IMG/VR virus record: IMGVR_UViG_3300025168_000586
Location: 1-25,773 of that record
Source of the DNA: a virus
Reading direction: 5' to 3' (one strand)
DNA length: 25,773 bases
A model generated the notes under the pieces. That model ran no database searches and had not been told where the DNA came from. It was given only the letters and a program-made list of their open reading frames with translations. The translations under genes and the position numbers were made by a program. Positions 6,835 to 25,700 of this stretch are shown piece by piece (the first letter of the stretch is position 1; each line of letters begins with the position of its first letter).

Positions 6835-7817
6835 TAGAAAGCCGAGGGTAACGAGGCTATACCGCCAACTGACGATTGGGGACGGAAGTTAGACATCATC
6901 GCACTCGAACTGTTACCGATAGAATCCGGACCAGCGTTCCTATACATCATCTCATCACCCCCGAACAAGGGTTGTGCTGAACCGTCCTGTTTGCCGTAAC
7001 CAAAACTTTCTTCGGCGCCAAAATGCGCACGTTCAGCCTGATCTACAAGGTCTACAAATTCGGTCACTTTCGCCTGCATATTTTGCTGCGCCGGACCGGT
7101 ATACGTTTGGTTTAAATAATTACCGTAAACCTTTAAAGGTGAAGACTGCAACTGAGTCATTTGCTGACCAAAATGTTGCTGCATATTTTGAAATATTCCG
7201 CCTATACCACTCATACCACCCATACCACCCATGGGGCTTGAGCCTTGCCTGTGTTCCGCGATTATTTCCGACATGGGTTGCCCTTGTTGTGCAGGCAAGA
7301 CCGATGTACCCATTTGGGGTTTCATAGGGTTTGCGTAAGGTGATGAAATTACTCCACCGGCCTCCATTTGTTGTACGGGGTAAGAAATATGACCCCCTTC
7401 TGATCGCCTTTCCACGTCGTCTCCTTCAGAATGGCCCGGACCACCGCCACCGGGTCCACGTTCTGGACCGTCTTGGTTTCCGCCAATTGTTTCTATAGTT
7501 TCACCACTGCCAAATATTCCGGCAAGACCGCTCATTCCTGCAATACCGGATGTTCCACCACTAGTCTGACCGCTATATCCACCAAAACTAAAGGCGGGGA
7601 CCGTGGACCCTGTTCCGCGGCCCACGTAACCAAACCGTATAGCATCTCTTGACGCTGCGTCAGCCGCGGCCCGCGAGTCTGATTTCTTTTGAAGTCGCGC
7701 AGCAAACGCATCGTAACTTGCTTGGTCATAATTGTACTTTTCGGGGTTTTCTAACCGGTCTTGTTCGTTGCTAGTTAAGTAACTATTCCGACCACCGTAT
7801 TCCTCAAAAATACTCAT
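6834..7817 (-). CDS. Gly/Met/Gln-rich putative virion protein (327 aa)
   Basis: The N-terminus is charged and aromatic. Residues about 65-130 and 190-212 are Gly/Ser/Met-rich low complexity, and the C-terminal 80 residues are Gln/Ser-rich. A GGHISYPVQQMEAGG segment at 141-155 matches the paired-GG element seen in the neighbouring 933- and 590-residue proteins. No enzyme motif is visible. Position immediately after the giant internal protein and TAATG overlaps on both sides argue for a minor virion or assembly component made together with them. A flexible, disordered protein is expected from the composition. The function is unknown. Confidence 0.8.
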   Translation of the reverse strand: MSIFEEYGGRNSYLTSNEQDRLENPEKYNYDQASYDAFAARLQKKSDSRAAADAASRDAIRFGYVGRGTGSTVPAFSFGGYSGQTSGGTSGIAGMSGLAGIFGSGETIETIGGNQDGPERGPGGGGPGHSEGDDVERRSEGGHISYPVQQMEAGGVISSPYANPMKPQMGTSVLPAQQGQPMSEIIAEHRQGSSPMGGMGGMSGIGGIFQNMQQHFGQQMTQLQSSPLKVYGNYLNQTYTGPAQQNMQAKVTEFVDLVDQAERAHFGAEESFGYGKQDGSAQPLFGGDEMMYRNAGPDSIGNSSSAMMSNFRPQSSVGGIASLPSAF

Positions 7818-10800
7818 TACGCTTGTCCCATCAAGCTACCGATGCCGAGAAGTTCTCGGTCTTCTGGGAATAAGGCTGCAAACTTAGTCCGATCTACAGG
7901 CCCTGAACCCTGTGATACCGATTGAACGGCGGCAGGTTGTTGTTGGACCGGACCAAGTGCAGGTCCACTGTTCGGAGTGGGAGTCTGAACAGGTGGATTG
8001 ATGGCCCCTTGTGGGTTATTTGGGGGCAAATTTTGCGGAAGATTCATAGGCCGAGATTCTTGTTCCGGCAAAGTGTACTCTTCTTCAGTTACAGGGCGTA
8101 CTCCTAACGGTATACGTCTTCCCGTTTGTCGGGCTAAAGGTTCAAATGCTTTTTCTATTACAGACATGGCATTGTCGCGTTGTTTCTTGTCGTTAATCTC
8201 TTTCATCATTGCTGCAAGCAACTTAGGGTTAGAGAACATCTCTGTCATTACTTTTAAACGCTGAGTCTCAGGACCGCGAAGCAAGACACGTTGTGCCAGA
8301 TCAGAACCCGTTTGTTCCGCAATAAGACCTCCGCTCATTTGCGGCATATTCAAGAATTTTTTCAATTGCTGTTGTCCAAATGCACCAAACGTAGCACCCC
8401 CAATACGGAGGTACATTAATTTGGCCATGCTTGGGTTTTTAAACAACACGTTTTCAAAGTTGTTAGTAGCAAAGGCTTCTTCTACACCACGTAACGTCTT
8501 AACAGCTTTCTGAACCTCGTTCATTTCGGCTTCTGTGGCAAGTCCTTTATTAATCATAAAGTCTTTCATGGAAAACTTGGTATTAGGGTTCACGCCGTCC
8601 AGTTGCCCAAAGATAGATTTCTGGAAGGAGTCGCCATTTGGCAATCCTGCGGTATTGTTTGCTTTACGCAAAGCATTATTAAAAATAGCGGATTTCAAAC
8701 CTTCTAAAGCTTGTTCACGTTTGTATTCACCACCTTTGTAATTGGCTTCATCGACCATTTGATAAAGCTTATTGAGGGCTATGGTGGGTCGTGGAGACGC
8801 AAGTGCTGTTGCCACTGCTTTTCCGGGGTCTTCAAACTCCAATACACTTTGGAAGGCTCGTGTAGCGTACAAACGATCAATTTGCTCTGGGCTAAAACCT
8901 CTTTCTTGAGCTTTAGTGGGGCTCATATCCAGAGACACGTCGTCTAACATGTTGTCGAAAGCTCTTTGTGCCGATTGAGCGTCGGTTAAATCGACTTCTA
9001 GATCGTTTATCAAAGCAAACAATTCTTTAGTACCGGGTTGCTTTTTAAAGGTTTCTAGCTTGTTAGCGTTTACAACAAACGTTTCAATCATTTCACCCGG
9101 TTTAGCGGGATTTGGTTTAGATTTCTTATCCATCACTTTACGTAAAGAATCACGCAATGCGGCGCTCATCAGCTCATCAGCCGTCATTATTTGTGCTTCA
9201 GCTTCACTTATCCCGCCTTCATCCACTAGGAAACGACCGGCTGCTTTTATCTGTTCAAAACGTTTAGCCGTGCTTAGATTGCCGCCACGGAAGGCCGCAT
9301 CAAGCAGGTTTTGTGGGTCTAAAACCAGACCCCTGTTTCGGTCTGTTGCCGTTAGATCGCTTAAAAAACTACGTGTAAACACATTGTTTTTAGCAAAGGT
9401 ATATGCGCGAGCCGCATTGTACGCATCGGAGGCTCCGTCTTTTTGTCCGGTCAAATCCCTGAGTAAAGCGTCGTTAATTTTGTCCAGTTTACCCGCATTA
9501 ATTGTATCGCCGTTTTTTCTAAAAGTTGACGCACGAGCAAGTAACCCTGAACGCATTTCAAAAAACTTTTGTGCAGTAGCGGGATTACGTCCGGTTCCGT
9601 TTTGGAAGTAATCACGCAAGTCATCAATGTCTTTTTGGTAACCCGATAAAGCAGAGCTAAGATCGCCTTGCTGACCTTTTGATGCAAAATTAAGCCCGCC
9701 TTCTCTTGAGGGACGATCCAACAACTGCAAAACGTTAGGTTGCTGTATCTCAAGGCCATTTTTAGCGTAAAACTGCGTAAGTGGATAACTCCCCACTTCT
9801 TTCCAAAGTCTGCCCTCTCTTACCTTACTAAGGTCAATCTGGTTCTTTAACACGTCATACAGTTTTTGCGATAAATCAACGCGTTCTGACGCACCTGTCA
9901 CGTCTCCGCCAACCACCTTGGATGCCGATTCCATTAACTTGGTTACGGAGGAATCTACGCCGTCCATAATGTTTTGTTCGTACAAACCTTGTTGAACACG
10001 TGCCGCATGAGCCAAAGCAAGGGGGTCACCTGTAGCCGCCAAAGCTCGAATCGCGGCAACAGCACCTGCTTGGAGTTCTTCTCTACCCCTTCCCGTAGCT
10101 GCCGCCAAGTCTGTACTGGTTTTAGCTAATTCGTTTTGAATGGTTTGTAGTGTAGGCGAAAAATCTAAACCTGAAACTTTTGCTAAATCCGCAACAGTGA
10201 GGTTTATATCGTTTCCGTCTGCGTCCTTTCTAACCACTTCGGCTTCTTTGCCAAGTGCTTCAATAAAGGCTGTTAATCTTTCATCAGCCATTACGTCTTC
10301 ACCTGTTTCGGCACTTTTCTTTACAGCGTATTCTTCGGATTTTTGTATAGCTTGTAAAATTCTATCTGCGCTGTCTTTTTTCAAAGACTCGGTTAATATC
10401 CCGTCTTTTGTTTCGTCGGTCGCGTTTCCATAAAACGTTCGCAGAGTTCTAAACAAACTTCTTGCCGCGTCTGGTGCAGAATCTAAAGCAAGTTGCGCCG
10501 GAATAGGTATCACTAGTGACCCTAAAAGCTCATATCCCAAACGAGTGCTGTCGTCATACGGTGCTAAATCTTGAGCCAAATAAGCCCCCGTGCCCGCACC
10601 AACACTTGAAAGGCCCTCTGCGCCTAAAAACTTTTTAGGGTTTTCTCTAGCAAATTTCATTGAGCGGTCAATACCGCTCTCAATACCGCCTACTATTCTA
10701 GAGCCTACCGGACCTTTTCTTGGGTCAAAAGCGTAACCTGCCGGGTTGAACTTCGCAATGCCTATGTTCACCCCTAAAGCGCCACCAAACATAGGACCGC

Positions 10801-11614
10801 TTTCAGAGGCGGTTGCTCGGGCCTTTGAAGCGCTTTCAAATAATTTTGCCGTTGCTTTTTCGCTTAAACCGGCGTTTCTTGCGGCAAGCTGAAAAGCCTC
10901 GTCAGCTATGTCGGTAAACTTACCGTTCGACACCTGTTTGAAATTTTCTAAAAATTCAAGGGCGCCTGTTTTGGCTTTAGGTATACCGGTTGCTAGTTTC
11001 CAAGGCGATGACAACATGGACAAAGCAAACATAGCTGTTTCACCAAAATTAGCCGAAGGCTGTAATGAAGGTATTACGGGAGCTTTTTCACCAATAATGG
11101 CATCTTCCGCTTGTCCCGCGCCTATTGCACCAAGAATAGCGCCACCAACACCACCAACACCGAAAACAATGCCTTTTGCCGCTAAACCCGGCAAACCTAC
11201 CGGAGGAATTGCAGCAGCAATAGGTGTTGCGGCGGCAACCCCTGCTTTAAAACCTAATCCGCCGCCAACGGTTTCTGGAACTATTCTTGCTGCTGAATGT
11301 CCGGCAGCTCTGAGCCCTGAAAACCCTTCTTTTTCTGGATCATACTTACCGTAATCATCGACGTTAGTAAAAATAGTTAGTACTTCTTCAGGCGTAATAT
11401 TACGTTGTTCTGGAGCAATACCTTTGTAACGGTCTAACTTGTCTAAAATAGGGTGTGTGCCGTTACCTAAACTTTCCATGGTTAAAGGTGCGTCTAGCTC
11501 TAACTCTTCGTTAGCTATAGATAACACTCCTTGCACGGTTTGATCTAAACCTTGCGTTTGCATCAGGTTTTTAAACTGAGGAGCGGTTAACTTAACTAAG
11601 GCTTCGTCAGACAT
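7817..11614 (-). CDS. Giant internal/ejection-type virion protein (1265 aa)
   Basis: No peptidase or polymerase motif is visible. After a soluble N-terminal 110 residues comes a long Gly/Ala/Val-rich hydrophobic stretch (about 114-168), able to form membrane-inserting helices. About 700 residues of mainly helical charged sequence follow, then a Pro/Gln-rich tail from about 1165, ending with a folded-looking peptide RTKFAALFPEDRELLGIG. The LFPxD ending is one I associate with internal virion proteins of podovirus-like phages. Size, hydrophobic patch and place among large tail-end genes parallel the T7 gp15/gp16 ejection proteins, which cross the host envelope during DNA injection. That parallel is by layout and not by detected homology. 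It is preceded by a strong AGGAGGG ribosome site and joined to both neighbours by TAATG. Confidence 0.82.
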   Translation of the reverse strand: MSDEALVKLTAPQFKNLMQTQGLDQTVQGVLSIANEELELDAPLTMESLGNGTHPILDKLDRYKGIAPEQRNITPEEVLTIFTNVDDYGKYDPEKEGFSGLRAAGHSAARIVPETVGGGLGFKAGVAAATPIAAAIPPVGLPGLAAKGIVFGVGGVGGAILGAIGAGQAEDAIIGEKAPVIPSLQPSANFGETAMFALSMLSSPWKLATGIPKAKTGALEFLENFKQVSNGKFTDIADEAFQLAARNAGLSEKATAKLFESASKARATASESGPMFGGALGVNIGIAKFNPAGYAFDPRKGPVGSRIVGGIESGIDRSMKFARENPKKFLGAEGLSSVGAGTGAYLAQDLAPYDDSTRLGYELLGSLVIPIPAQLALDSAPDAARSLFRTLRTFYGNATDETKDGILTESLKKDSADRILQAIQKSEEYAVKKSAETGEDVMADERLTAFIEALGKEAEVVRKDADGNDINLTVADLAKVSGLDFSPTLQTIQNELAKTSTDLAAATGRGREELQAGAVAAIRALAATGDPLALAHAARVQQGLYEQNIMDGVDSSVTKLMESASKVVGGDVTGASERVDLSQKLYDVLKNQIDLSKVREGRLWKEVGSYPLTQFYAKNGLEIQQPNVLQLLDRPSREGGLNFASKGQQGDLSSALSGYQKDIDDLRDYFQNGTGRNPATAQKFFEMRSGLLARASTFRKNGDTINAGKLDKINDALLRDLTGQKDGASDAYNAARAYTFAKNNVFTRSFLSDLTATDRNRGLVLDPQNLLDAAFRGGNLSTAKRFEQIKAAGRFLVDEGGISEAEAQIMTADELMSAALRDSLRKVMDKKSKPNPAKPGEMIETFVVNANKLETFKKQPGTKELFALINDLEVDLTDAQSAQRAFDNMLDDVSLDMSPTKAQERGFSPEQIDRLYATRAFQSVLEFEDPGKAVATALASPRPTIALNKLYQMVDEANYKGGEYKREQALEGLKSAIFNNALRKANNTAGLPNGDSFQKSIFGQLDGVNPNTKFSMKDFMINKGLATEAEMNEVQKAVKTLRGVEEAFATNNFENVLFKNPSMAKLMYLRIGGATFGAFGQQQLKKFLNMPQMSGGLIAEQTGSDLAQRVLLRGPETQRLKVMTEMFSNPKLLAAMMKEINDKKQRDNAMSVIEKAFEPLARQTGRRIPLGVRPVTEEEYTLPEQESRPMNLPQNLPPNNPQGAINPPVQTPTPNSGPALGPVQQQPAAVQSVSQGSGPVDRTKFAALFPEDRELLGIGSLMGQA

Positions 11615-14415
11615 TATTCGCCCTCCTTATTTTGTTTACGCATCAGTATTATTTGATTATGAACGTTTTCGGTGCTTTGATCGTTTTCGGTTTCGGCGCT
11701 TCTAACAATGGGCTCGAACTCAAATCCTTTTTGAAAAGCTAATACGTCGTTGTAAAGTACTTTTATGCGGTTCATTTCTTGTCGCATTTGCGTAATTTGT
11801 TTTTCGGTATATTCGCCGGTGTTACCACCATATTCTGGAATAACGGCGGCACCTTGCATAAGCGACCGCTCTAACGAAGCGGCTATAGTTTCAAGTGAGG
11901 CTTGCGCGTCGGCATCCGTCTTGTTTAAAAGTCCGCCCGGACGAATATTCTTTGTTTCTTTTTCCAGTAGTTCTTGAACAAATTTAAGTATTCGACCGCC
12001 TTGGTCACCAGAGGTATTGTATTGCAGCAAATCATTTGCCAACGCCTCTAAGCTAGTCTGGGCCCTCGCGATACTTTTTGCTCTAGGGGTCGCGTCACCT
12101 CCAAACAATTCAGCAGAGCCCTCACTAATAATTTTGCCAACAGACGGCACAACTCTTGATATACCCACAACTTCTCGATAATTTGCCTTCGGATCAAACA
12201 AGGCAGAGGGAGTGCTTTGCCACACCTCCGAATCTCTGTTTACAGTGCCGTCGGGGTTCATAATCTCAGAGGCTGCATTCATCAAAGTAAGCGGTGCCTC
12301 TGGTAAGTCGCCACCGGCATCAGTAAGTTGAGTACCTGTTATTTGCGTAAACAACTCCGGGTTCCCTTGTCGGATATTTTCCAAAATAGCCGGAGCTAAT
12401 TTACCGGAAGAGCCTTTAACGTATTTACCTACAGCAGGGTCCCACACATCTTTAGCGGAGGTGTAGTCCAGTATAGCTTGCTCATACAGTGCTGTTTCGT
12501 CGCCTAAGTCACCGGTAGCATACTGAGACATGCGCTCTGGGTTAGTTAGATAAGTCAATTCGTCTGTTTTAGACTTACTACCAACTTTTGTTGCGTTAGC
12601 TACAAGTCGCTCAATGCTCAACATGCCTAGCTTGTAAGCTTCGTCCAGAGCTTGCGCTCTTTCAGTAATATCGAGCTGAGTATCTTTCTGATCCGCGCCG
12701 CGTGTTGCGAGAGCCTCGTCAAACGCACGGTTTGTCTTAGAAATTGCTCTGTCAATTTCTGATTGTTCCGAAGTAAACTCTTGCATTTCTTCTTGCATAA
12801 GTTTGCGGAAAGTTTGGTCATTAAGTTGCAGTTTTTCTTTTTCGACACGTGAAAGCGCGTTTTCCGCCGCTGTAAACACGTTCTGATGATCTTGGTTTTC
12901 ACGTTCAATAGCACCACGATGACTGGTAAGAGCAACGTTTTGCTCGTGACCACGGTCCATTTTGGAAATATCATTGATATGCAAGAGGCCGTCGCGCTCA
13001 AGTGTGTTCTCAAAATTGATCTGACTTTCACCAATTTTCAATTCACTACCAAGACGCATGTTTTCCTGCTCAAGCATGTTTCGAAGATTGATACCTTCTT
13101 TGGTATTGTCAAACTCAAGTGCAATAATGGCACGTTGGTTAGCAAATTGCTGCTCTCTAACAGAGTCTTGATAACCTTGCGTGTCTAAACGTTCTGCCGT
13201 TGTAAAGTCAAACCGGTCGTTTTGCATTGTGCGTTGGAAAGTGTTGTTGATCTGAGACAATTCCTGTTGCAATTGACCACGTAGTGTAATGTCAGCTTGA
13301 CTTTGTGAGCCTTGCAGTCTTTGCAGTAAATCTTGTGCTTCAATCTTTCGATCAGCCAACCGCATTTGGAAGTTTTGATTAGATTCGTTTTCTTGTTGGT
13401 TAAATGCAAAAGTCTTGTCCAATTTAAGCATGTCTTGCGCTCTATCTAAGGCGCTTTCGTTAGACTTCCATTTCTGTTCTGCGGCCATAGCGGCATTATC
13501 AGCGTCTACTTTAAGTTCGAACGCTAACTGATTCTCAGCAGCGCCCAACGCAGACAGGTTCAAAGCTCTTTTCTCTTTCTTTTGACCTTGTTTAAACTTC
13601 TGCAATTCACCGGCACGGGCACTGATGTTGCCAAGTACCGGCTGAAAAGACTCCGCCAACCTTTCGGCAGGACTCATGTTGCGGTCACCCGCTGTAGCAA
13701 ACCCTAAAGCACCTTGTGCTACATCAAAAAGCATTTGAGCTTTTGTCATATTTTGTTGGTCAGCAAACTCAGCGTCTTGATCTGCCATACCGAGGATGTC
13801 GCCATATACGGATTGTTTATCTTGATATATTTCTCCAAGGCGGGGGTCGCCTCCCGCTCGCATATATGCCACAGGCCCGCCTTGGTTAAAATTTACAGGA
13901 GCAGGACCTCCGGGGCCTTGCATTGGCGCTTCGGGAGCGCCCATATTAACCGTAGACATAATCCCTTCGGCCATCGCACCTTCTATCGGAGCATTCATCT
14001 CTTGAGCAGCTAATCCGCCAATACCTTGATCTACCTCTGCCATCTGCATTACAGGCTGAAGTAGCGTTAACACCGATTCAGGTGTCGCTTGTGAGTCTTC
14101 GGGACCTACCACCTGCGACAGTTCTTGATATCGTTGCTCAATAGGTGCGCTGTCGCCGCGAATACCGTTAATTACGGTTTCGTAATCTTGCGCATTTTCT
14201 AAGTTGTCCAGTTGTCCCGCATATTGGGTCAACATGCCTTCCATCATTGCAGGGTCAATACCCTGCTGCATTGCGCCTTGCGCAGCCTGATTAATATCCA
14301 CCGAATTCGGATCAACCGGAGGCAAACCGGGAGCCGTTACTTGTGGTCCGGGAGCCGCGGGCATTGCTGCGCCGCCATTAGCAAACATTTGCCGACCCAT
14401 TACTTCTCTATTCAT
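11614..14415 (-). CDS. Coiled-coil internal virion protein with N-terminal GG motifs (933 aa)
   Basis: The N-terminal 190 residues are Pro/Gly/Met/Gln-rich and include FANGG (11-15) and NFNQGGPVAYMRAGG (175-189). Residues about 190-620 are long charged helices rich in Gln, Glu, Asn and Leu, with few prolines, probable extended coiled coil. The C-terminal 300 residues look globular. I recognise no catalytic motif. Together with the 590-, 1112- and 1265-residue proteins it forms the block of large proteins between tail genes and operon end where podovirus-like phages keep internal or ejected proteins; that role is inferred. The start overlaps the upstream stop as TAATG, and a GGGG ribosome-site-like run lies 8 bases ahead. 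Confidence 0.82.
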   Translation of the reverse strand: MNREVMGRQMFANGGAAMPAAPGPQVTAPGLPPVDPNSVDINQAAQGAMQQGIDPAMMEGMLTQYAGQLDNLENAQDYETVINGIRGDSAPIEQRYQELSQVVGPEDSQATPESVLTLLQPVMQMAEVDQGIGGLAAQEMNAPIEGAMAEGIMSTVNMGAPEAPMQGPGGPAPVNFNQGGPVAYMRAGGDPRLGEIYQDKQSVYGDILGMADQDAEFADQQNMTKAQMLFDVAQGALGFATAGDRNMSPAERLAESFQPVLGNISARAGELQKFKQGQKKEKRALNLSALGAAENQLAFELKVDADNAAMAAEQKWKSNESALDRAQDMLKLDKTFAFNQQENESNQNFQMRLADRKIEAQDLLQRLQGSQSQADITLRGQLQQELSQINNTFQRTMQNDRFDFTTAERLDTQGYQDSVREQQFANQRAIIALEFDNTKEGINLRNMLEQENMRLGSELKIGESQINFENTLERDGLLHINDISKMDRGHEQNVALTSHRGAIERENQDHQNVFTAAENALSRVEKEKLQLNDQTFRKLMQEEMQEFTSEQSEIDRAISKTNRAFDEALATRGADQKDTQLDITERAQALDEAYKLGMLSIERLVANATKVGSKSKTDELTYLTNPERMSQYATGDLGDETALYEQAILDYTSAKDVWDPAVGKYVKGSSGKLAPAILENIRQGNPELFTQITGTQLTDAGGDLPEAPLTLMNAASEIMNPDGTVNRDSEVWQSTPSALFDPKANYREVVGISRVVPSVGKIISEGSAELFGGDATPRAKSIARAQTSLEALANDLLQYNTSGDQGGRILKFVQELLEKETKNIRPGGLLNKTDADAQASLETIAASLERSLMQGAAVIPEYGGNTGEYTEKQITQMRQEMNRIKVLYNDVLAFQKGFEFEPIVRSAETENDQSTENVHNQIILMRKQNKEGE

Positions 14416-17400
14416 TAAAATAACCCCGCTTTTGCTGCGCCTGCCGCTGCCGACAAGCCTGCTACGCCCAAGCCTAGTATAGACTGAGCGGGTGATACGC
14501 CACCACCTGATTGTTGTGAGACGGCCATCTGGCTAGATGGTGCACCCTTGTATATGTCTGATAAGAACCCTACACGCTGATAAGGCTCATACTGCTGTTC
14601 AACCTGCGTTTTACGTGTTGCTTCCAGAACTGCTTGATCTTGTGCTTGCTGCTGCTTGCCGACATCGAAAACGAAGCCCGCTTCTTTCTGACCCATATTT
14701 TGCTGTAACTCACCAAGAGCGCCTTGACGCAAGCCCAATTCACTTAGGCCTTGCCCCTGTTGTAAGGCAAGCTGACCGTAACTTGTTCCAAGACCTGCAA
14801 TACCTTCGCCCATACGGCCTTGTAGCTCGGAGCCTTGTAGACCAAGAGCGCCACCGGCTTGTGAACCTTGCATGGCCATTTGGGCTTGGCCTTGACCAAG
14901 CTGACCAGACTGACCGGCTAACTGACCGGCCAATTGTTCCGCAGATATACCCATCTGCGCGGCCCGTGAGGCGATGTCCGCCTGTTGGTTTACGCCTTGC
15001 ATGGCCAACGCGCCGGTTTGCTGTCCTAATTGACCAACTAACTGGGCGCTACTTAGCCCGGTGTTTGCCGCAAGCTGCTGTAGATTCATACCCGTTGTAG
15101 CCAAAGCGTTTGCATTGGCTGACGCCATCTGCTCGGCAGATAATCCCAACTGACCGGCCTGATTCAGAGCCGCTAGACCCATCTGACCGCCCTGCTGTGC
15201 GCCTTGTTGTCCCATTTGTGCCGCGGTTAACCCCATTTGAGCGCCTTGTTGCGCACCGGATTGACCTAGTTGAGCCGCCTGCATTCCAAGTTGAGCGCCC
15301 TGCTGTGCCGCAGTCATACCTGTCTGAGCCTGTTGCTGCGCCGTGGTCGCTGCTAATTGTTCCGCAGAAAGTCCTAACTGACCGGCATTTTGCGCTGTTT
15401 GAGCTAACAACTGATTAGCGGACATACCTGTTTGAGCTTGTTGGTTAATCAACTGGCCCGCTAACTGTTCGGCACTGATACCCATTTGAGCCGCCTGACC
15501 CGCTAGTTGTCCCTGCAATTGTGCCGAAGACATACCAAGCTGTCCGGCTAATTGCTCGGCAGATTGACCTAACTGACCCGATTGAGCCAAGTTTGAAGCA
15601 GCAAGCTGTTCCGCGGACAGTGCTTGTTGTCCCGCGTTTAACGCGCCTTGTTGCGCCATCTGCTCGGCAGACAAACCAAGCTGACCTGCTTGCGCCAAGT
15701 TTGATGACGCTAGTTGGTTTGCACCTTGTTCTAGCTGTCCGGCCTGCCCAAAAGCAGACACACCTAACTGACCGCCTTGTGTTAGACCCTGTTGCGCTAA
15801 TTGCTCGGCACTCATGCCTGTTGTAGCGGCTAATTGCTCGGCGGATAGTCCTAACTGACCTTGTTGCTGTGCAGTACGTGCCGCAAGTTCTTCTGCGGAT
15901 AGGCCTAGTGTACCTGCGGCTTGTGCCGCGGCCATGCCCGCTTGAGAACCTTGGGCGCCAAGAGAGCCTGTAAGTTGTGCCGCTTGTTGCGCTCTGGCTT
16001 GTTGCGATTCAAAAGCTTGTTGCGCTCGTTGTGACGCACTTTCAAAACCTGCCTGACGCATACCCGCCGCAGTACGTCCCTGTTGTTCTAGGACGTTTCT
16101 TTGCAATTCTTGTTCAGCTACGGCTTGACGTGATCCGCCAAAGGCACCCGCACCTACCGCTTGAGCGCCAACCTGTTGCTGTTGTATGTTACCCGCACGT
16201 TGAATATCCGCTAAAGCTTGCTGAACCGCAGCATCTTCGTACTGATTCATAAACGAACCCGCGGAGCTAGGGTCATAACTGCCCGTAGTACCCGCTAGTC
16301 CTGCAATACCCGATTGAGCCGTCTCTGTCCCTAATGCACCTGCCTGCTGTAGGGCTTGTGCGGCGTCAGAAGTGATTCCTCTAGCGCCTGAAATTGCCGT
16401 CTGGGTTTGTTGCGCTGCTTGTTGCGCCGCGGTTTGTCCACCTGCTCTAGCTTGACCTGCAACGTTTCTAGCTGCTTGCGCAACGTCATCAATTCCGCCA
16501 ATAGCTCTTTCATAAGCTCCAATTCCTCCTGCCGCTGATTCTCCTGCCGCGGTCCGTGCAGCGTCACTTACGCCGCTTAAACCCTGACTAGCTTGTTGCG
16601 CCGCGAGCCGTGCTGCATCAGTAGCACCCGCAACACCTGCACCTGTTTGTTGAGCCGCGGCCCGTGCTGCGTCAGATACACCACCTAAACCTTGTGCGGT
16701 TCCCGCGGCACCTAATCTTGCACCTAATCCGGCTTCAGCCGCAGCATCCGCACCGGCTAATCCGGCTGCGCCAAGAGCTTGCTGTCCACCCGCCGCTTGG
16801 GCTCGGGCAGCTTGAATGGCCGCATTTGTTGCAGTACCGGCTTCTTGTGCTGCTTGTAAACCACCAATACCGGCCTGTGTAAGACCTGCACCCGCACCCG
16901 TAACGGCTTGACGTGCGTTCGCAATGGCAGCAGCAGAATCTGTGCCTGATTCTTGTGCCGCGGCACTTAAACCCGCTTGTCCTGTGGCAGCGGATTGTTG
17001 GCCTGCTAATGTTGCAGCATCTAGTCCGGTCTGTCCTGCGGCAGCGGCTTGTTGTGCCGCCAATGTTGCAGCATCTAGTCCTGCTTGCGCTTGGTCCGCC
17101 TGAGCAATACTGCCTTGACCAACACTTTCGGCTAACGATCTTGACGCGGCATCTGACCTAGCTAAACGACGTTTTTGCTCTGTTTCTCGACCAGAGTACC
17201 GCGCATCGGCAACAGCTTGTTGCGCAACGGTATTTGCTGCGGTGTTAGCAGCTTGAGTATCTGTAATTACGCCGGGTATGTTACCCGCCGCAGCGCCTAG
17301 AGCTGTTTGACCACCCGCCGCCGCCGTCCGTGCGCCGGTTGCGGCTGTATCTAGAGCTGTTTGCGCAGCAGTCGTTGCCGCGCCTCCCGCGTCAATAGCA

Positions 17401-17753
17401 CCTGCAATACCTTGCTGCGCGGCTTCAACTTGTCCGGGGACGTTAGCGGCGCCGGTACGCATAAAGTCTGCCGCTTCCGTTTGAAACGGTTGTGCTGCGT
17501 CCATGACGCCGCCCATAGCGGTTTGTGCGTCGCCAAGGGTATAACCGGCTTCGTCTAAATAAGGTTGATATCCACCAATTCCGGCTTCCGCAAGTTCGGT
17601 CGCCTTAATCTGAAGGCCAGACATTTCCGCAACCATGTAGGGCGGAATAGTTTGTCCTTGGTCAGCAAGAGCTTTGGCCGATTGCAAGAGGCCTAGCTTA
17701 TAAGCCTCTATCTCCGGTGCTTCACGTACTATCTGTGTGGATTGTTCAGCCAT
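14415..17753 (-). CDS. Ala/Gln/Gly repeat virion protein with 7/11/18-residue ladder (1112 aa)
   Basis: Composition is extreme: Ala, Gln and Gly dominate and there is almost no Cys, Trp or Pro. Residues 225-260 and 355-408 are 18-residue repeats (GLDAATLA.. and G..G.SDAAR.AA types). Residues 617-1020 are a ladder of G-[LMI]-SAEQLA-like units spaced by 7, 11 or 18. Between them, residues about 497-585 are a conserved-looking block (SFMNQYEDAAVQQALADIQR, AVGAGAFGGSRQAVAEQEL) of a kind I recall from other phage structural proteins. The last 90 residues are distinct. The repeats predict very long helices or coiled coils. A GGGAGGG ribosome site precedes the start. A ruler, scaffold or ejected internal role is inferred from neighbours and shape; a fibre or adhesin is the alternative. 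Confidence 0.85.
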   Translation of the reverse strand: MAEQSTQIVREAPEIEAYKLGLLQSAKALADQGQTIPPYMVAEMSGLQIKATELAEAGIGGYQPYLDEAGYTLGDAQTAMGGVMDAAQPFQTEAADFMRTGAANVPGQVEAAQQGIAGAIDAGGAATTAAQTALDTAATGARTAAAGGQTALGAAAGNIPGVITDTQAANTAANTVAQQAVADARYSGRETEQKRRLARSDAASRSLAESVGQGSIAQADQAQAGLDAATLAAQQAAAAGQTGLDAATLAGQQSAATGQAGLSAAAQESGTDSAAAIANARQAVTGAGAGLTQAGIGGLQAAQEAGTATNAAIQAARAQAAGGQQALGAAGLAGADAAAEAGLGARLGAAGTAQGLGGVSDAARAAAQQTGAGVAGATDAARLAAQQASQGLSGVSDAARTAAGESAAGGIGAYERAIGGIDDVAQAARNVAGQARAGGQTAAQQAAQQTQTAISGARGITSDAAQALQQAGALGTETAQSGIAGLAGTTGSYDPSSAGSFMNQYEDAAVQQALADIQRAGNIQQQQVGAQAVGAGAFGGSRQAVAEQELQRNVLEQQGRTAAGMRQAGFESASQRAQQAFESQQARAQQAAQLTGSLGAQGSQAGMAAAQAAGTLGLSAEELAARTAQQQGQLGLSAEQLAATTGMSAEQLAQQGLTQGGQLGVSAFGQAGQLEQGANQLASSNLAQAGQLGLSAEQMAQQGALNAGQQALSAEQLAASNLAQSGQLGQSAEQLAGQLGMSSAQLQGQLAGQAAQMGISAEQLAGQLINQQAQTGMSANQLLAQTAQNAGQLGLSAEQLAATTAQQQAQTGMTAAQQGAQLGMQAAQLGQSGAQQGAQMGLTAAQMGQQGAQQGGQMGLAALNQAGQLGLSAEQMASANANALATTGMNLQQLAANTGLSSAQLVGQLGQQTGALAMQGVNQQADIASRAAQMGISAEQLAGQLAGQSGQLGQGQAQMAMQGSQAGGALGLQGSELQGRMGEGIAGLGTSYGQLALQQGQGLSELGLRQGALGELQQNMGQKEAGFVFDVGKQQQAQDQAVLEATRKTQVEQQYEPYQRVGFLSDIYKGAPSSQMAVSQQSGGGVSPAQSILGLGVAGLSAAAGAAKAGLF
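14694..15905 (-). repeat. Protein-level ladder of heptad/hendecad repeats in the 1112-residue gene
   Basis: The repeat covers residues 617-1020 of the host gene. The recurring G-[LMIQ]-S-A-E-Q-L-A start points are separated by 18, 11, 18, 29, 18, 18, 11, 18, 18, 18, 18, 11, 7, 11, 18, 11, 18, 11, 36, 18, 7, 11, 18, 18, 7 and 7 residues. Every spacing is a sum of 7s and 11s, which are the two classic coiled-coil periods (3.5 and 3.67 residues per turn). The underlying DNA is only loosely repetitive. Confidence 0.85.
16530..16691 (-). repeat. Three 18-residue (54-bp) repeats, SDAAR type
   Basis: Residues 355-408 of the 1112-residue protein hold three consecutive 18-residue units beginning GLGGVSDAAR, GVAGATDAAR and GLSGVSDAAR. 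The DNA copies remain partly similar. Confidence 0.8.
16974..17081 (-). repeat. Two 18-residue (54-bp) repeats, GLDAATLA type
   Basis: Residues 225-260 of the 1112-residue protein are two 18-residue units starting GLDAATLA. The plus-strand string gttgcagcatctagtcc recurs at 17011 and 17065, exactly 54 bases apart, so this duplication is recent enough to be seen in DNA. Confidence 0.85.
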
Positions 17754-19525
17754 TACGCTGTCGCCCTCCCGCGGCTTTCAAGATTACGCATTACTGAATA
17801 CATGTTCTTGATTCCATTATTAAGGTTTCCGTCGCCAAGGCCACGTACCGCGTCGGTAGTCATCACAAACTCACCGGGCATTAACATAGCTCGAACGCTA
17901 TCTTCGCCTTTTGTACCTTCGGTGGGTGCTATACCGCCCGTGCGACGTGGGAAGATCGGTCCGCCGTCCGCGGCACCTTGGTATTCTTCCGTCACATAAG
18001 GACGGGCAAAAGGCCCGCCGGGGGTACTAGACCTCAAGTAATTTTGTTGGTCAATTGGCGTGTTAAAAGCAACAGCTTGTTGTGGTGGGGCATAACCCGT
18101 CAAATCTTCATCGTCAAGCATCGTGCTGCTACCAAAAGGTTCGTATTCGCCTGTTTCCTCGTTCAAGCGTATTGAACCCAAGTCTTTAACTAAGAATTTA
18201 CCGGGATCAGCGTCGATCAAGTCTCTACCCGTGGTAACCGTACCGTCGTCGTTATAATCCAAGAAATTAGCGCGTTCCGTTTCAGGGACATCAAAGAAGC
18301 CCGCGCCACCTGCGATAGCCGTTCCGGCTAATGCTGTTGGTCCAAACCTAGCTATCAGTCCGGGTCCCGCGGCGGCTTTGGCGGCTTCAAAACCTGCCGC
18401 TGTTTGAAGATGTTTTGGGGTTTCGGCTAAATAAGCCGCACCCTCTTTTACTCCCCCGGCTGCAATTTGTTCGGGTGATTGACCACCACGAAACATTACG
18501 TCACCTGTCTTTTCCAAAAAGCTACGTTCAACAGCAGCTTCTGTGGCAGCTTCTGCGCCCGTTTTCACAGCAGTTTCTGCGCCCGTTTTCGCAGCGGTTT
18601 CTGCGCCTTGCTTAACAGCAGCTTCTGCGCCCGTTTCTACAACAGAACCGGTATACATGCTGTCTGCTAAGTTATCAATTTGTGCAGTAGCCATCGGGTC
18701 AAATTTACTAAATAAGTTGCCTTCTCCACCAAAGCCACCACCTGTGAAGGTAGAACCGGCACCCGACAGTGTTTGACCAACACGGTCTCCAAAGTTCGAA
18801 GCGGCGTCGCCAACCTTACTCATAAAGCTGCCGTTACCGGGGCCTGTGAATCCCGCGGTTACACCACCGATCGCGCCAGATATAAGCGCAGACTTTAACG
18901 CGTCTTTTATACTACCGCCGTTTAGAAGTGTTCCAATACCCGAACCCATTGCGGCGCCATAAATTGGCCCGAGAGGCGTCATCGCTAATACGATAGGCAA
19001 GACAATTGGAGCTATTTTCTTAATAACCTTAACAACGCCTTTAAGAACTTTTTTAATGCCCTTAAATAGCTTTTTCAAAAAGAATTCAGGTAAACCTGTG
19101 GTAGGGTTAAGATCGTTAGCGTCGGCGCCAACAACATAAGCTTCAGGGTTTTCAACCCCCGCTTCTGTAAGAATATCGTAAATACGTTGCTTCATTACCT
19201 CGTCTTCGAGGAATTGTGCCGGGATGACTAATTCACCCTCTGCAACGTGGGCAAGCATATTGTCTTCGTTTCGACCATACTTGGCCATGCGCTCGGCCAA
19301 CGCCGGAAATTGCGCTATGCCTTCTGTACCGTAGTCTTCGGCTTTTTCGGAATAAACCTCCTCAAGCTCATCATCTTCCAAGGCAAAATCGCCAATACCG
19401 CCGGAAGGGACTTCAAGCTCCTCAAGTTCTTTGGATTCCTCGACTTCCTCGACTTCCTCGACTTCCTCGACTTCCTCGACTTCCTCGATTTCTAGCTTTT
19501 CATCTTTTAACGCTGCTTTGGCCAT
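17753..19525 (-). CDS. Putative virion protein with membrane-active segment and GEFVMT motif (590 aa)
   Basis: The N-terminus (about 12-40) is an acidic EEV tandem repeat. A HVAEGELVIP element (93-102) leads into a region ending PTTGLPEFF. Residues 149-171 form a Lys-rich amphipathic helix (KKLFKGIKKVLKGVVKVIKK), followed at once by a hydrophobic Gly/Ala stretch (172-195). Residues 298-329 are four 8-residue TGAE.A.K repeats. Residues 423-435 resemble a calcium-binding loop (DYNDDGTVTTGRD). The C-terminus has GGPIFPRRTGG (521-531) and LMPGEFVMTTDAVRG (548-562), a signature I know from many phage structural proteins of unknown role. The membrane segment suggests a protein that contacts or penetrates the host membrane during DNA ejection. 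It starts by TAATG with an AGGTGGAG ribosome site. Confidence 0.83.
   Translation of the reverse strand: MAKAALKDEKLEIEEVEEVEEVEEVEEVEESKELEELEVPSGGIGDFALEDDELEEVYSEKAEDYGTEGIAQFPALAERMAKYGRNEDNMLAHVAEGELVIPAQFLEDEVMKQRIYDILTEAGVENPEAYVVGADANDLNPTTGLPEFFLKKLFKGIKKVLKGVVKVIKKIAPIVLPIVLAMTPLGPIYGAAMGSGIGTLLNGGSIKDALKSALISGAIGGVTAGFTGPGNGSFMSKVGDAASNFGDRVGQTLSGAGSTFTGGGFGGEGNLFSKFDPMATAQIDNLADSMYTGSVVETGAEAAVKQGAETAAKTGAETAVKTGAEAATEAAVERSFLEKTGDVMFRGGQSPEQIAAGGVKEGAAYLAETPKHLQTAAGFEAAKAAAGPGLIARFGPTALAGTAIAGGAGFFDVPETERANFLDYNDDGTVTTGRDLIDADPGKFLVKDLGSIRLNEETGEYEPFGSSTMLDDEDLTGYAPPQQAVAFNTPIDQQNYLRSSTPGGPFARPYVTEEYQGAADGGPIFPRRTGGIAPTEGTKGEDSVRAMLMPGEFVMTTDAVRGLGDGNLNNGIKNMYSVMRNLESRGRATA
18539..18634 (-). 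repeat. Four 8-residue (24-bp) repeats, TGAE type
   Basis: Residues 298-329 of the 590-residue protein read as TGAEAAVK, QGAETAAK, TGAETAVK and TGAEAATE. In the plus-strand DNA the block with ttctgcgcc recurs every 24 bases. An alanine-rich helical linker is the likely product. Confidence 0.85.
19441..19485 (-). repeat. Nine-base coding minisatellite (EEV codons), five perfect copies
   Basis: The plus strand reads cgacttcct five times without change, with degenerate copies on both sides (cgatttcta follows at 19486). On the coding strand this is a run of Glu-Glu-Val codons near the N-terminus of the 590-residue protein. The period is a multiple of three, so copy-number change would lengthen or shorten the acidic tract without breaking the frame. 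Confidence 0.92.
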
Positions 19526-19758: not shown

Positions 19759-20051
19759 GATGTTGTTACCGTAACGCTACCCACGGTCCCTGCGGCTTGT
19801 GATCCCCTAAGATAAGGCTTATTGGCTACCGTTATTCGTAACTCATCGCCATACTGAAAAACACCACCCAGAGGAAGGTTATAGTTGTCGGTCTGTAGGT
19901 TAGGCAACGTCAAAGCCGAAGCTTGCCATGGACCGGGGTTATTAACTTGTTGCAAAAACACAGAAAAAGCACGAACAACTTCTGCCATGTATTCCGAATT
20001 GTAATCAGACGGCGCATTTGGAAATAAGGGTTGTACTAAACCTCTACTCAT
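19755..20051 (-). CDS. Small structural-type phage protein (98 aa)
   Basis: An N-terminal helix (EYMAEVVRAFSVFLQQVNNPG, split here as EYMAEVVRAFSVF and LQQVNNPG) is followed by short beta strands: NLPLGGVFQYGDELRITV and a Thr/Val-rich C-terminus. The helix plus beta-sandwich layout and its place beside the tail-nozzle-like gene fit a minor tail or neck component. I know similar small proteins next to this gene in podovirus-like phages but not their role. It overlaps both neighbours by ATGA. Confidence 0.75.
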   Translation of the reverse strand: MSRGLVQPLFPNAPSDYNSEYMAEVVRAFSVFLQQVNNPGPWQASALTLPNLQTDNYNLPLGGVFQYGDELRITVANKPYLRGSQAAGTVGSVTVTTS

Positions 20052-21973
20052 CTACGGCCATCCGGTCTTAATTCAACACGCGGTGTACCTAGTCTCCACT
20101 CTACACCCGTATTATCTGATTCTATCTTTAACGCAAACGAACGTCCCCTCAACCGAAGTCTTACTTGATCGGTAAATTGCTCTACAGGCACTGTCGAAGT
20201 ACGAATCACATTACTACTTACCGTTTGCGCGTAATCTGTGCCCGGAAAACGTCTTGTCTCAAGCGTAAAATCAACGTTTGGCGAAGGGGAGCTAGAACCC
20301 TCGAAAGTTACGTCTGGTATTAATTTGCTCAACAAGACAAAGTTATCTCCGGCACCCATGGACATTTGACTACTTTCTATATAAGAGCTAATAGCCGCAG
20401 GTGGATTAACACTGCCGTCATCTTGACCAAACTCATGGTAATAAAGGTATCCGTCTAAACTGGCGGCAATGGGGAAATCTTGAATACCGCGGTCAATCCA
20501 CGCGGTGCGCGATAAATTGCCGTAATACCACACCTGTTCTTGATAGTTGTACACAACGTATTTGTCGATGTTATCTGAACCCGATGAAGGGTAGTACCAC
20601 CAAACCTCCGAATAAGAAGAATTAATGGCGGCTGTTACTTTTTCGGATTGTGATTGATTGAAATCATTAAACACGTAAGCGCGTACTGAACACGGCAACT
20701 TTTGTACTTGACCCGTATACAGGTAAAACTCTTCTTCACCCATCCACATGACCATGTCATCTACGGCGACAGCCGCTAAAGGACTAGCAATTGTAATGTT
20801 TTCGGAAATCATTGAAATACCAAACGTAAAGGGCGGTCCCAAGTACTGCATGGCGTGTAACGATTTATCTGTAAATACTAATATTTGCTGCCGTGTTTCA
20901 AGAGCCGTGATTATCTCAGAGCCCGTACCGATACGGAGATCACCTGCCGTGTTAGTGGCTTGTGCTGACCAAACTAAAGGGTTTTCTTGATCCGAAAAAC
21001 GAATAAGTAGCGGGTCTTGTACGCCAATGTTATCTTGCGCATCACATCCGAACACTAGCACGTGTCGGTCTCGATCTGAAATCATCACCTGTTTAGCAAT
21101 AGTGGGCGTAGTGGCATCAGCACCGGCTAGGTCCGACAAGGATACTGCGGGTGCAAAAGGTGCGGAACTGGTAGATTTGTCCCAGTAATAAATACCGCCG
21201 TTACGGACGTTAATGATTAAGTCTTCACCAAAATTGTCGTGGCTCCAGATACGGAGAATGTCACCAACCGCGGTAAGGTTTGCTCCGGAACCCCATGTTC
21301 CTCGGGACCACGTGCTTGCGCCCCAACCGTTTCCCGCGACAGTGGTGTCTAGCCCGCTTTGAATTTGATACGTTCCTACGATAGACCCGCCGCCGTTTCC
21401 TGAATCAGACGCGTTAGCTACAACGGGCGTAGGCGTGTAAGTACCGTCAACGGTAATGTCGTTAACGGTAGCAACGGCCCTAGCAACGAGTTCATATGAA
21501 TTAGCGTTTACAATTCTAGTTATTTGATATTCTTGGTTTAAAACAGCGGCTGTAACAACACCGCCTAGCGTTGCCGCGCCACTAAACGTAACGAAATCGT
21601 TTTCGTTAGCGCCGTGGTTTGTGTCTGAAACAGTAAGCGTAGACGATCCGTTAGTTGCGGCGAAAGTTACATCACCCGCCGAAGTGGTCGAACGAATAGG
21701 GGTAATGTCATTGTAGGCACCCCCTTCGTTGATGTAATATTTTAAATGTGTGCCAAGACCTAAATAGCTTGCGCCGTCTAGTGCAACAAAAGGCTTTATT
21801 GCTCGGCACGTGCCTAAAAAACTTTTGCCTGAGTATTTTTCCCAACCCCCGATTTTTTCGGGGGTGCCGAAACGAAACCTTACTTTGTCACAGTCAAACC
21901 AACCACCTTCGTTTGTATAAGAAGTGGTCTCTCTGTTTACTCCGGGTCTAAACTGTAACTTTTGTAAGGGCAT
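20048..21973 (-). CDS. Tail-nozzle-like structural protein (641 aa)
   Basis: The start (LQFRPGVNRETTSYTNEGGW, then DCDKVRFRFGTPEKIGGW) is a signature I recognise from a widespread family of podovirus-like tail proteins. The bulk is beta-rich with recurrent aromatic and Gly-Tyr-hydrophobic strands (for example VLVFGCDAQDN, ILVFTDKSLHAMQYLG, VWWYYPSSGS), consistent with a propeller-like nozzle such as T7 gp12 or P22 gp10, though that equivalence is inference. Residues about 98-185 look like an inserted beta domain (TLTVSDTNHGANENDFVTF), of the sort often labelled FCCH-like in such proteins. The gene begins one base after the stop of the 78-residue gene and overlaps the next by ATGA. It probably sits at the tail tip. 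Confidence 0.82.
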   Translation of the reverse strand: MPLQKLQFRPGVNRETTSYTNEGGWFDCDKVRFRFGTPEKIGGWEKYSGKSFLGTCRAIKPFVALDGASYLGLGTHLKYYINEGGAYNDITPIRSTTSAGDVTFAATNGSSTLTVSDTNHGANENDFVTFSGAATLGGVVTAAVLNQEYQITRIVNANSYELVARAVATVNDITVDGTYTPTPVVANASDSGNGGGSIVGTYQIQSGLDTTVAGNGWGASTWSRGTWGSGANLTAVGDILRIWSHDNFGEDLIINVRNGGIYYWDKSTSSAPFAPAVSLSDLAGADATTPTIAKQVMISDRDRHVLVFGCDAQDNIGVQDPLLIRFSDQENPLVWSAQATNTAGDLRIGTGSEIITALETRQQILVFTDKSLHAMQYLGPPFTFGISMISENITIASPLAAVAVDDMVMWMGEEEFYLYTGQVQKLPCSVRAYVFNDFNQSQSEKVTAAINSSYSEVWWYYPSSGSDNIDKYVVYNYQEQVWYYGNLSRTAWIDRGIQDFPIAASLDGYLYYHEFGQDDGSVNPPAAISSYIESSQMSMGAGDNFVLLSKLIPDVTFEGSSSPSPNVDFTLETRRFPGTDYAQTVSSNVIRTSTVPVEQFTDQVRLRLRGRSFALKIESDNTGVEWRLGTPRVELRPDGRR

Positions 21974-22745: not shown

Positions 22746-25700
22746 TTATCCTTCTAAGGTTGTGATTCTTGCGGTTAATGCGTCTACTTGTGCAGACAGT
22801 TCTTTTACAGCGTTAATTAAGTACCATTGCAATTCGCTAGATTGTACAGATTTAACACCTGTGCTTTCTTCAGCAACAGCACTTGGAAGAACTGTTTCTA
22901 GCTCCTGTGCAATAACGCCAATTTGTTGTCCTGAAATACCAAGAGCAGTGTGACCTTCAAGAATTCCATCAGCTTCCACTTCTGCCGTAGATTTATACTC
23001 AAAGTTCCTGACAACAATATCGTTTATTATTGCTAGACCATTTGTGTTAGTTGTAATGTTCTTTTTTAGTCTTCGGTCAGAAGTTGTTGACCAAGTAGTT
23101 GCATTGTTTCCCTGATAAACCCCGCCAGTGTTAGGATTTATAAAACCAGTGTTTTCCCCTTTACCCGTTGAATTCACACCAATAACAATAGTATTGTTAT
23201 GTGTAGCATCAGCCGTTTCTGAGTTGTAACCAACAATAGTATTTTGAACACCAGTGGTAATTGCTTCTCCTGCTTGACTACCGATGAGCGTATTCTGAAC
23301 GCCTGTGGATACTGCGACTCCTGCATCGTAACCAACGGCTACGTTGTAAGCATTAGTCGCTGAAGTAAAGTTCTGTACCTGTAATGCGTGTTGACCTATT
23401 GCGACTGACCTACTTCCTAAAGTATCAGAGGTTAATGCTTGACTACCTACTGCCACATTAAAATCAGCGTCTGTAAGAGCATCTCCTGCTAGAGCGCCGA
23501 TGAGTACATTCTGGAGGCCTGTGGTTACTGAAAGACCTGCATTAGCGCCTACTGCAACATTGTAGGCGACTGTCGCAGAAGTGAAGTTTTGGGCAGATAA
23601 AGAATTTATACCAATAGCTACTGACCCAGCACCTTTTGTATCTGCACCTAATGCGCTTGTACCGATAGCTACATTTTCATAGCCTGTAGTAAGTGCATCC
23701 CCCGAAAGACCGCCAATGAGGGTGTTGTTTGTGCCCGTGGTTACTGCGGTTCCCGCTTTGTATCCCACCGCAACATTATAAACATCAGTAGCTCCGGTAA
23801 AGTTTTGAGCCGCTAAAGCAGACCTGCCTAGCGCAGTAGAATGATTGCCCTTTGTGTCAGACCCTAGCGCGTCATATCCAAATGCCGTGTTTTCAGACCC
23901 AGTATTAAGCGCGTCACCTGCAAACGCACCGACCATAGTTTGAAGAGCGCCTGTGGTGTTTGCTATTAAAGCACTAGCACCGACTGCGGTGTTGTTAGAA
24001 GCGGTGGTGTTTGCTGTTAAAGCATCCATCCCTACAGCGACATTATTGCTGCCACTGGTGTTTGCTTGTAAAGTATCTCGTCCTAAAGCAGTGTTATTAG
24101 AGCCAGAGGTATTAAGTTTTAAAGCTTCTCTACCTAAAGCCGTATTGCTGTCTGCTGTTGTGGCCGTGCTTAAAGCCTCCATCCCAATAGCCACGTTAAA
24201 GCTGCCAGTGGTTAAAGCATCTCCTGCCAAAGCACCCACCGCTACGTTGGCTGTACCTGTCGTGTTTGCGTATAAAGCCTTATAACCACTAGCCGTATTG
24301 TTAGTGCCTGAACTATTGAGGTTTAATGCTTGATGTCCCAACGCTGTATTAAAGCTCGCCGTAGTTTGTTGGTTTAACGTGTCACGCCCCACTGCTGTAT
24401 TGGATGTACCTGTGGTATTTGACGTTAAAGAATCAACGCCAATAGCGGTGTTACTGCTTGCTGTTGTAGTTGCAGACAAAGAACGATACCCAAGTGCCGT
24501 ATTTGCCTGACCTGTAGTAATCGCATCTCCTGCCAAGCCGCCGACAAGAGTATTGTTTGTGCCTGTGGTTACTCCGGCTCCTGCATAAAAACCTACTGCG
24601 GTATTGTGGTTATCTACATCAGAGTTTTGTGATTCTAATGCTGCAAAACCTATAGCTACGTTTTTTCTACCTGTATCTTCTGCACTTAATGCAAGCCGAC
24701 CCAGTGCTACGTTATTAAATCCCGTAGTAAGAGCATCACCAGCACTATCGCCTACGGCAGTATTACCTGAGCCTGTGGTGTTTGATAATAAAGCAAGAGT
24801 ACCCACTGCTGTGTTGTTAGAAGCGGTGGTATTTGCGTTTAACGCCCCATAACCCAAACCAGTATTGCTAGCACCCGTAGTGTTGGCCCCTAACGAGGCT
24901 GATCCGACGGCAGTGTTATCCGCGCCTGTTGTATCAGAAGTTAAAGCACCATTACCCACAGCAACATTGTCATTGGCTGTAGTAATCGCATCACCGGCAA
25001 GACCACCAATGAGCGTATTACGAACGCCTGTGGTTACTGCTACTCCCGCATGGTGTCCAATTCCCACATTGTAGGCATTAGTTGCGGTAGTAAAGTTCTG
25101 ACTACCTAAAGCAAAATATCCCAAGGCGACAGACCGGCTACCTTTTGTGTCTGCGGTCAATGCAGAGAAACCCAAGGCCGTATTGTAATCACCAGTAGTA
25201 ATCGCAGTACCTGCTTCATCGCCTACGACAACATTATAATTACCACCGCTTACAATGCTGTTACCTGCGTTGACACCTGCAATGAAGTTTGATGTTCCTG
25301 CTGTAGTAGAATGAAGTCCTGCACTTGTTACGCTAGAATTAAAAGTAGCCGCACCAGCCGCACTAAAATCTAGGGTTAAGGCTGTAATGGTTGAGCCACC
25401 ATCGTTGCCTCTAATAAAAATATCTTTATCTTGTACTGCGTTTGCTAATATAGTGTCGCCAGAGCTGTTTGTAACCGAAAGAAATAAAGTACCCGCATCT
25501 TTTAAAAGAAAGTCTGCTCCGTTAGCATCAAGAATAATATCGCCTTCGGAATCTAGTATAAAATCTCCTGTGGCTGACAAAGTAGAGCCGTCAAGCGTCA
25601 TAGTATCTACCACTACACCTGCGTTGGCTGTTACTACGCCGCCTGCGACAACAGTGCCAGATACATCTAAGTTACCATTCAGGTCTACGGTGGTAGCAGC

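Follow-up and report, generated by a model that had tools for sequence, protein, structure and literature searches.

Among the closest described systems is gp14, a podovirus ejection protein of phage T7 that forms an outer-membrane channel. Once ejected, it is a hairpin of two antiparallel helices connected through a short loop, and the hexameric channel consists of such hairpins (PMC11784390). Proteins of the gp14 type are otherwise conserved in size, at 181–240 aa (PMC8954989). A second group of phage proteins is collected in PHROG 4287, a 'DNA ejection protein' profile that is matched by LUZ24 gp53, HTVC023P gp81, HTVC027P gp83, and a 294-aa protein of phage DSL-LC04. The hairpins of chemoreceptors were reportedly described by Alexander and Zhulin in 2007 as carrying symmetric indels. 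These cytoplasmic hairpins are antiparallel and helical, and fall into length classes counted in heptads, such as 34H, 36H, 40H, and 44H (PMC9321776). The coiled-coil arms of SMC proteins are likewise antiparallel, with natural lengths that are periodic (PMC5344682).

We analyzed a contig of a marine virus, IMG/VR record IMGVR_UViG_3300025168_000586, of which the whole stretch of 25,773 nucleotides is called the window below. It encodes a 1112-aa protein with two long repeat arms between three conserved blocks (Table 1). It resembles T7 gp14 in the position of its gene before those of two larger, putative ejection proteins and in a small-residue hydrophobic C-terminal segment (hydropathy peaks at residues 1089–1112), and probably also as an antiparallel two-helix hairpin, for which paired indels and the Glu-Arg register are strong but indirect evidence. 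It differs in scale, since gp14 has 196 aa and arms of about 60 residues, whereas arms in the hairpin family range from near zero to about 560 residues, with about 500 reached. Members of PHROG 4287 share homologous N, tip, and C blocks, and in the short ones the match covers most of the protein; these are essentially armless, whereas the clade of the window has two paired repeat arms. Chemoreceptor hairpins, which are not homologous, change by heptads and form few classes, while the protein described here changes by whole-turn steps of 11 and 18 residues over a far wider range. SMC proteins, also without homology to it, are ATPase machines with a much longer length period, and to our knowledge their arms have no one-to-one Glu-Arg ladder.

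Table 1. Coordinates of the hairpin gene, its parts, the Glu-Arg rungs, and neighboring genes in the window
Feature	Position	Strand	Remarks
1112-aa hairpin protein gene	14415..17753	(-)	ORF; 57 IMG/VR loci and phage DSL-LC04 encode homologs (294-1346 aa)
N block, residues 1-75 (IVREAPEIEAYK ... GIGGYQPYL), hairpin base	17529..17753	(-)	conserved landmark
Arm 1, residues 76-493, Ala/Gly-rich, Arg rungs (DAAR-type motifs)	16275..17528	(-)	
Tip block, residues 494-596, conserved	15966..16274	(-)	
Hairpin turn GAGAFGGS, residues 534-541	16131..16154	(-)	mirror centre of paired indels
Arm 2, residues 597-1039, SAEQLA ladder, Glu rungs	14637..15965	(-)	
C block, residues 1040-1112, FLSDIYKGAP and small-residue hydrophobic C-terminal helix	14418..14636	(-)	
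Rung Arg458 / Glu622	16380..16382 / 15888-15890	(-)	i+j=1080
Rung Arg429 / Glu650	16467..16469 / 15804-15806	(-)	i+j=1079
Rung Arg382 / Glu697	16608..16610 / 15663-15665	(-)	i+j=1079
Rung Arg364 / Glu715	16662..16664 / 15609-15611	(-)	i+j=1079
Rung Arg346 / Glu733	16716..16718 / 15555-15557	(-)	i+j=1079
Rung Arg317 / Glu762	16803..16805 / 15468-15470	(-)	i+j=1079
Rung Arg281 / Glu798	16911..16913 / 15360-15362	(-)	i+j=1079
Rung Arg205 / Glu874	17139..17141 / 15132-15134	(-)	i+j=1079
Rung Arg142 / Glu939	17328..17330 / 14937-14939	(-)	i+j=1081, two off main register
933-aa protein, putative gp15-like (tunnel) ejection protein by position	11614..14415	(-)	downstream of hairpin gene
1265-aa protein, putative gp16-like ejection protein by position	7817..11614	(-)	DSL-LC04 counterpart annotated DNA transfer protein
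641-aa P22 gp10-like stabilisation protein	20048..21973	(-)	phrog_3287, E=7e-72; marks short-tailed (podovirus) tail module

A scan of viral contigs identified homologs of the hairpin protein at 57 loci. Full proteins have 478–1346 aa and the DSL-LC04 version has 294 aa, while short versions of 247–286 aa are present in HTVC023P, HTVC027P, 023Pt_psg01, and one MAG contig. The N block is recognizable in most homologs and the tip and C blocks in all full ones; the tip block has a length of 102–103 residues in every homolog except the shortest and a mean column identity of 70% (A3 alignment). Searched alone by tblastn in phage records, the tip block gave no match and was probably masked as low complexity. 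The MAG contig (L062), which encodes its 247-aa short homolog at positions 743–1483, was the sole match among the genome contigs and was binned as Planctomycetaceae; it is phage-like, its binning is probably wrong, and it is uninformative on the host. The short homolog of phage 023Pt_psg01 (MW574966.1, 3001–3765) is annotated as putative peptidoglycan binding protein, which conflicts with the match of its relatives to the ejection-protein family. Weak Pfam helix-turn-helix matches occur in arm 2 (HTH_26, present in 14 of 23 members with a best E-value of 1e-4) and probably stem from the motif LGLSAEQLA, which automatic annotation could misread as DNA binding.

The lengths of the two arms are tightly matched. 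Across 43 full homologs, in which arm 2 spans 107–559 residues, arm 1 and arm 2 lengths correlate with r=0.9987 and a slope of 1.02, and phylogenetic independent contrasts on a tree built from the conserved blocks gave r=0.9994 and a slope of 1.008 (33 non-zero contrasts). The difference between arm 1 and arm 2 is exactly -23 residues in many otherwise divergent lineages, including the DSL-LC04 protein with arms of 12 and 35 residues, and -24 to -26 in the clade of the window, while the constant is -2, -6, -11, or -16 in a few other groups. Pairs of homologs differ by equal amounts in both arms, as in +18/+18 (L029/L031), +29/+29 (L034/L036), +36/+36 (L003/L002), and +130/+130 (L040/L031), and mismatches are small, for instance 14/18 between two related groups. 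The delimitation of arm 1 is based on this constant relation to arm 2 and on an 18-residue autocorrelation (z=5.3). It was this weaker period in residues 100–500 that extended the search beyond the SAEQLA-type ladder, to which a sequence-only reading of the window had drawn attention. That reading had the protein and coordinates right (residues 617–1020, positions 15905–14694) and captured half of the structure, having missed the antiparallel partner, which is the first, Ala-rich half of the protein.

Length changes also occupy mirrored positions. With indels placed under a one-gap model, their distances from the tip in arm 1 and arm 2 correlate at 0.985 (93 pairs); a parallel pairing of the arms, for which the correlation is 0.30, was rejected. 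The 24 clean indel pairs have a slope of 0.994 and r=0.998, and their mirror centre at residue 540.25 (IQR 539.4–541.2) coincides with the conserved GAGAFGGS. Two AlphaFold models, both of low confidence (pLDDT 50 and 54), also place a turn at GAGAFGGS.

A third line of evidence is the distribution of charges. With the centre fixed by the indels, opposite charges coincide most at shift 0 among 181 shifts. Exact pairs of Glu in arm 2 and Arg in arm 1 number 188 at one shift (i+j = 2c-1, which is 1079 here), compared to 80 at the next-best shift, one 18-residue unit away, and a background of 12.4 +/- 14.4; these counts are pooled from related homologs and are not independent events. In most of the 34 homologs examined, no other shift scored higher. 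The most divergent members (L039, L042, L046, L055, L056) show a faint rung signal or none, and in L053 it is displaced by one residue. Controls at this register, namely reverse polarity, like charges, Gln-Arg, and Ser-Asp, showed nothing, and for local volume, hydrophobicity, Ala/Gly, and Gln content the best match was not at the mirror register, which leaves charge alone. In the 1112-aa protein, the steps between Arg rungs (29, 47, 18, 18, 29, 36, 76, 63) mirror those between Glu rungs (28, 47, 18, 18, 29, 36, 76, 65). Paired insertions add as many Arg/Lys to arm 1 as Glu to arm 2 in 23 of 29 cases, and the counts agree within one in 28 of 29. Because arm lengths track each other, indels are mirrored, and Glu and Arg share one register, three lines that are largely independent, we conclude that arms 1 and 2 almost certainly pair as an antiparallel helical hairpin that turns at GAGAFGGS.

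The hairpin gene is situated between the gene of a 590-aa protein and those of the 933-aa and 1265-aa proteins, behind the P22 gp10-like stabilization gene, whose product has 39.7% identity to the DSL-LC04 stabilization protein (tblastn). Close to its N terminus, the 590-aa protein contains EEVEEVEEV, encoded by a tandem 9-bp repeat (19436–19492, 6.3 copies). Further genes of the window encode a 955-aa tail fibre or spike (22746–25613, minus strand) that has numerous GNNTAxG-type repeats and ends in a self-cleaving chaperone domain (Peptidase_S74), an AEP-TOTE-type primase (1380–2915, minus strand), a Pam3 gp34-like protein (2973–3749, minus strand), and, on the opposite strand, a SNF2-type helicase (4443–5891, plus strand); DSL-LC04 has a similar helicase-then-primase arrangement. 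In phage DSL-LC04, portal and adaptor are annotated, and a three-gene run of 294, 645, and 1068 aa, the last annotated as 'DNA transfer protein', fits the gp14, gp15, gp16 pattern in order and sizes (PMC8954989). The 933-aa protein is considered gp15-like because its gene order matches this run; it appears largely helical and charged, and its homologs in the core family have about 780 to 1076 aa.

Kinship to an ejection-protein family is supported by profile matches of the short homologs. PHROG 4287 matches the 294-aa protein of DSL-LC04 (E=6.9e-9, residues 10–288), the HTVC023P protein (E=2.3e-10), and LUZ24 gp53, which is noted as a particle protein (E=2e-10). The window protein itself has a weak match to this profile in its C-terminal residues 994–1106 only (E=3.7e-4) and is joined to the family through its homologs. 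These matches count against the alternative that the same hairpin is a fixed rod of the virion, either external, as a needle or fibre core, or internal and structural, even though a charge-poor, register-locked hairpin would be equally good as a rod. The DSL-LC04 gene order and sizes also argue against a fixed rod, while the position of the gene behind that of the tail hub and arm lengths that vary freely even among close relatives would suit one. P22-like phages have their needle gene at this place. A receptor-binding domain was not found in the hairpin protein, which again disfavors a fixed rod, and we consider such a role unlikely.

The sequence does not decide between a rod and a channel, but gene context and analogy with ejected T7 gp14 favor a channel hairpin. 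The hairpin gene of this podovirus adjoins larger genes that by position would be gp15- and gp16-like, as expected for a gp14-like setting, whereas the size of 1112 aa here, and of 247–294 aa in the shortest homologs, exceeds the about 180–240 aa of gp14. A sequence relation to T7 gp14 was not found (hhalign probability 0.1, E=0.62), T7 gp14 belongs to phrog_805 and not to phrog_4287, and searches with Pfam, T7 gp14, and PDB profiles gave nothing solid and no solved relative. Because the sequence comparison with gp14 failed, we infer that the hairpin protein works like gp14, by analogy, and not that it is gp14. We propose that it belongs to the virion, as part of the podovirus DNA-ejection module, and has a role in the ejection channel, which we regard as about as likely as not; the combined statement of an antiparallel hairpin with a gp14-like ejection-channel role appears more probable than not.

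Sequence register is alike for pairing within a chain and between chains, so that the arms could also pair between neighboring subunits as swapped hairpins; we regard this as improbable, because a turn that is short and conserved makes intramolecular pairing simplest and the hairpins of ejected T7 gp14 are intramolecular (PMC11784390).

Within the hairpin, arm 2 contains the stronger repeat. The SAEQLA-type ladder is real, yet the spacing of 7 residues that the sequence-only reading had listed beside 11, 18, 29, and 36 never occurs alone, and the nine strict SAEQ[LM]A sites, with spacings of 11, 47, 18, 18, 29, 36, 76, and 65, include some gaps longer than those listed. A unit profile built from these nine sites identified 21 ladder units in residues 608–991, compared to a mean of 1.3 units in shuffled zones. 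Their spacings are 11, 18, 11, 18, 11, 18, 18, 18, 11, 18, 18, 18, 29, 18, 18, 11, 18, 11, 36, and 54; all 20 are sums of 11 and 18, with a mean deviation from whole turns of 0.11 residue. Autocorrelation of the ladder against 500 shuffles was highest at lags 18 (z=11.5), 29 (z=10.7), 65 (z=9.4), 36 (z=8.4), 47 (z=8.1), and 11 (z=7.9), with just z=3.6 at lag 7. The sum of 7 and 11 is thus the internal make-up of the 18-mer and not a separate spacing of 7 residues. A strict rule of sevens and elevens did not hold: homolog lengths also differ by 4, 8, 10, 26, 37, and 48 residues, and looser motifs such as QLA violate it. Such a rule is moreover forceful for short spacings alone, as every integer from 60 upwards is a sum of 7s and 11s. 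We rejected it in favor of a rule of whole helical turns, each of 3.614 residues.

Among the homologs, arm 2 has 29 distinct lengths, which are in phase at this period (R=0.916 vs 0.66 for the best of 1000 jittered nulls). Length change hence keeps helix register, as had been suspected, and the quantization of arm 2 also upholds the description of the ladder region as ruler-like. For arm 1 lengths alone the period is borderline, because the N-terminal landmark drifts by 2–3 residues between clades. In the autocorrelation analysis, the dominant period of the ladder is 3.61–3.62 residues, and Gln, Ala, and Gly are each periodic there. Residue types hold fixed helix faces along the whole of arm 2 with a period of 3.616: Ala/Gly at about 190 degrees, Gln/Ser/Asn at about 0, Leu at about 75, and Glu at about 247. 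The stripe is nearly straight, and with a period of 3.61 arm 2 does not fit the canonical heptad (3.5) or hendecad (3.67) coil that had been suggested. Whole-turn quantization, fixed faces over hundreds of residues, and steps of 11 and 29 residues suit a continuous helix better than an alpha-solenoid, in which each 18-residue unit would be a short helix plus an LGxS turn as in toroid or helix-turn-helix arrays. A solenoid also does not predict equal arms and an antiparallel Glu-Arg register, and both low-confidence AlphaFold models consist mostly of continuous helix. Its support comes from a marginal profile match to the designed toroid dTor_6x35L (E=0.17), the weak Pfam helix-turn-helix matches in several homologs, and the resemblance of LGLS to a helix N-cap; as a description of the arms it is quite improbable, although it could apply to the packaged state of the hairpin protein.

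Repeat recombination could account for the step sizes taken alone, but not for the pairing of the arms. In favor of unequal crossing-over in a repeat array, with mutational instead of structural step sizes, DNA repeats are visible (diverged, 60–85% identity) and step sizes equal repeat spacings. As the sole explanation it is very improbable, since it leaves unexplained the equal changes at mirror positions of both arms and the matched Arg/Glu counts, and the paired inserts differ in sequence between arms and hence are not mutual copies; recombination may contribute to the step sizes. Exchange of a central cassette as source of the paired changes gave a mixed picture and was rejected as a general explanation, fitting L040/L031 and not most other pairs. 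In L040/L031, DNA identity is 96% in the inner arms and tip, the stretch bounded by the paired indels, compared to 84–89% in the outer parts, which suggests that the hairpin end was exchanged as a cassette.

For the antiparallel hairpin in an ejection role, we infer helicity along the whole arm, oligomerization, a channel, its location, and a function as ruler. Arm 1 would extend from the conserved N-terminal base, turn at GAGAFGGS, and arm 2 would return to the C-terminal base, with both arms held in register by rungs of arm-2 Glu opposite arm-1 Arg. Growth and shrinkage proceed by matched segment pairs at mirror positions, of equal whole-turn length and in most cases balanced in their Arg and Glu counts. 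Placed next to one another, several such hairpins may form a helical channel that extends the tail at or through the outer membrane, and arm length would set the reach of this channel. For fully helical arms, with 0.15 nm per residue, the computed extended length is about 32 nm for the 537-aa homolog L040, 75 nm for the window protein, and 93 nm for L014, compared to about 9 nm for T7 gp14 (residues 25–143 halved). Arm length does not co-vary with the lengths of the neighboring ejection proteins in the core family, and the idea that the parts of the conduit lengthen together was rejected because neighbor lengths are independent of the arms. A straight 75-nm rod is probably too long for the capsid of this genome class. 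As such a rod is unlikely to fit the head, the packaged state must differ, and broken helices are likely. In the packaged protein, the 18-residue units might be short helices that are broken at LGxS turns and join into uninterrupted arms when ejected; speculatively, the LGxS motifs, which account for the weak helix-turn-helix and toroid matches, would be natural helix break points of the packaged form. We only tentatively suggest the full scenario, in which the gene gains complementary Arg- and Glu-rung segments at two distant places and thereby tunes the ejected hairpin about tenfold between relatives, while packaged 18-residue units may fold short.

AlphaFold models this large, low-complexity phage protein poorly; its fold was read here from evolution alone, down to the register of residue pairs, and provides a design code, matched residue by residue, for long antiparallel helices poor in charge. 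If the proposed function is true, the reach of the podovirus DNA-ejection conduit would be an evolvable length. This would raise the testable question of what this length measures, be it surface polysaccharide or envelope spacing, and the question of how two separate, non-homologous insertions become fixed together.
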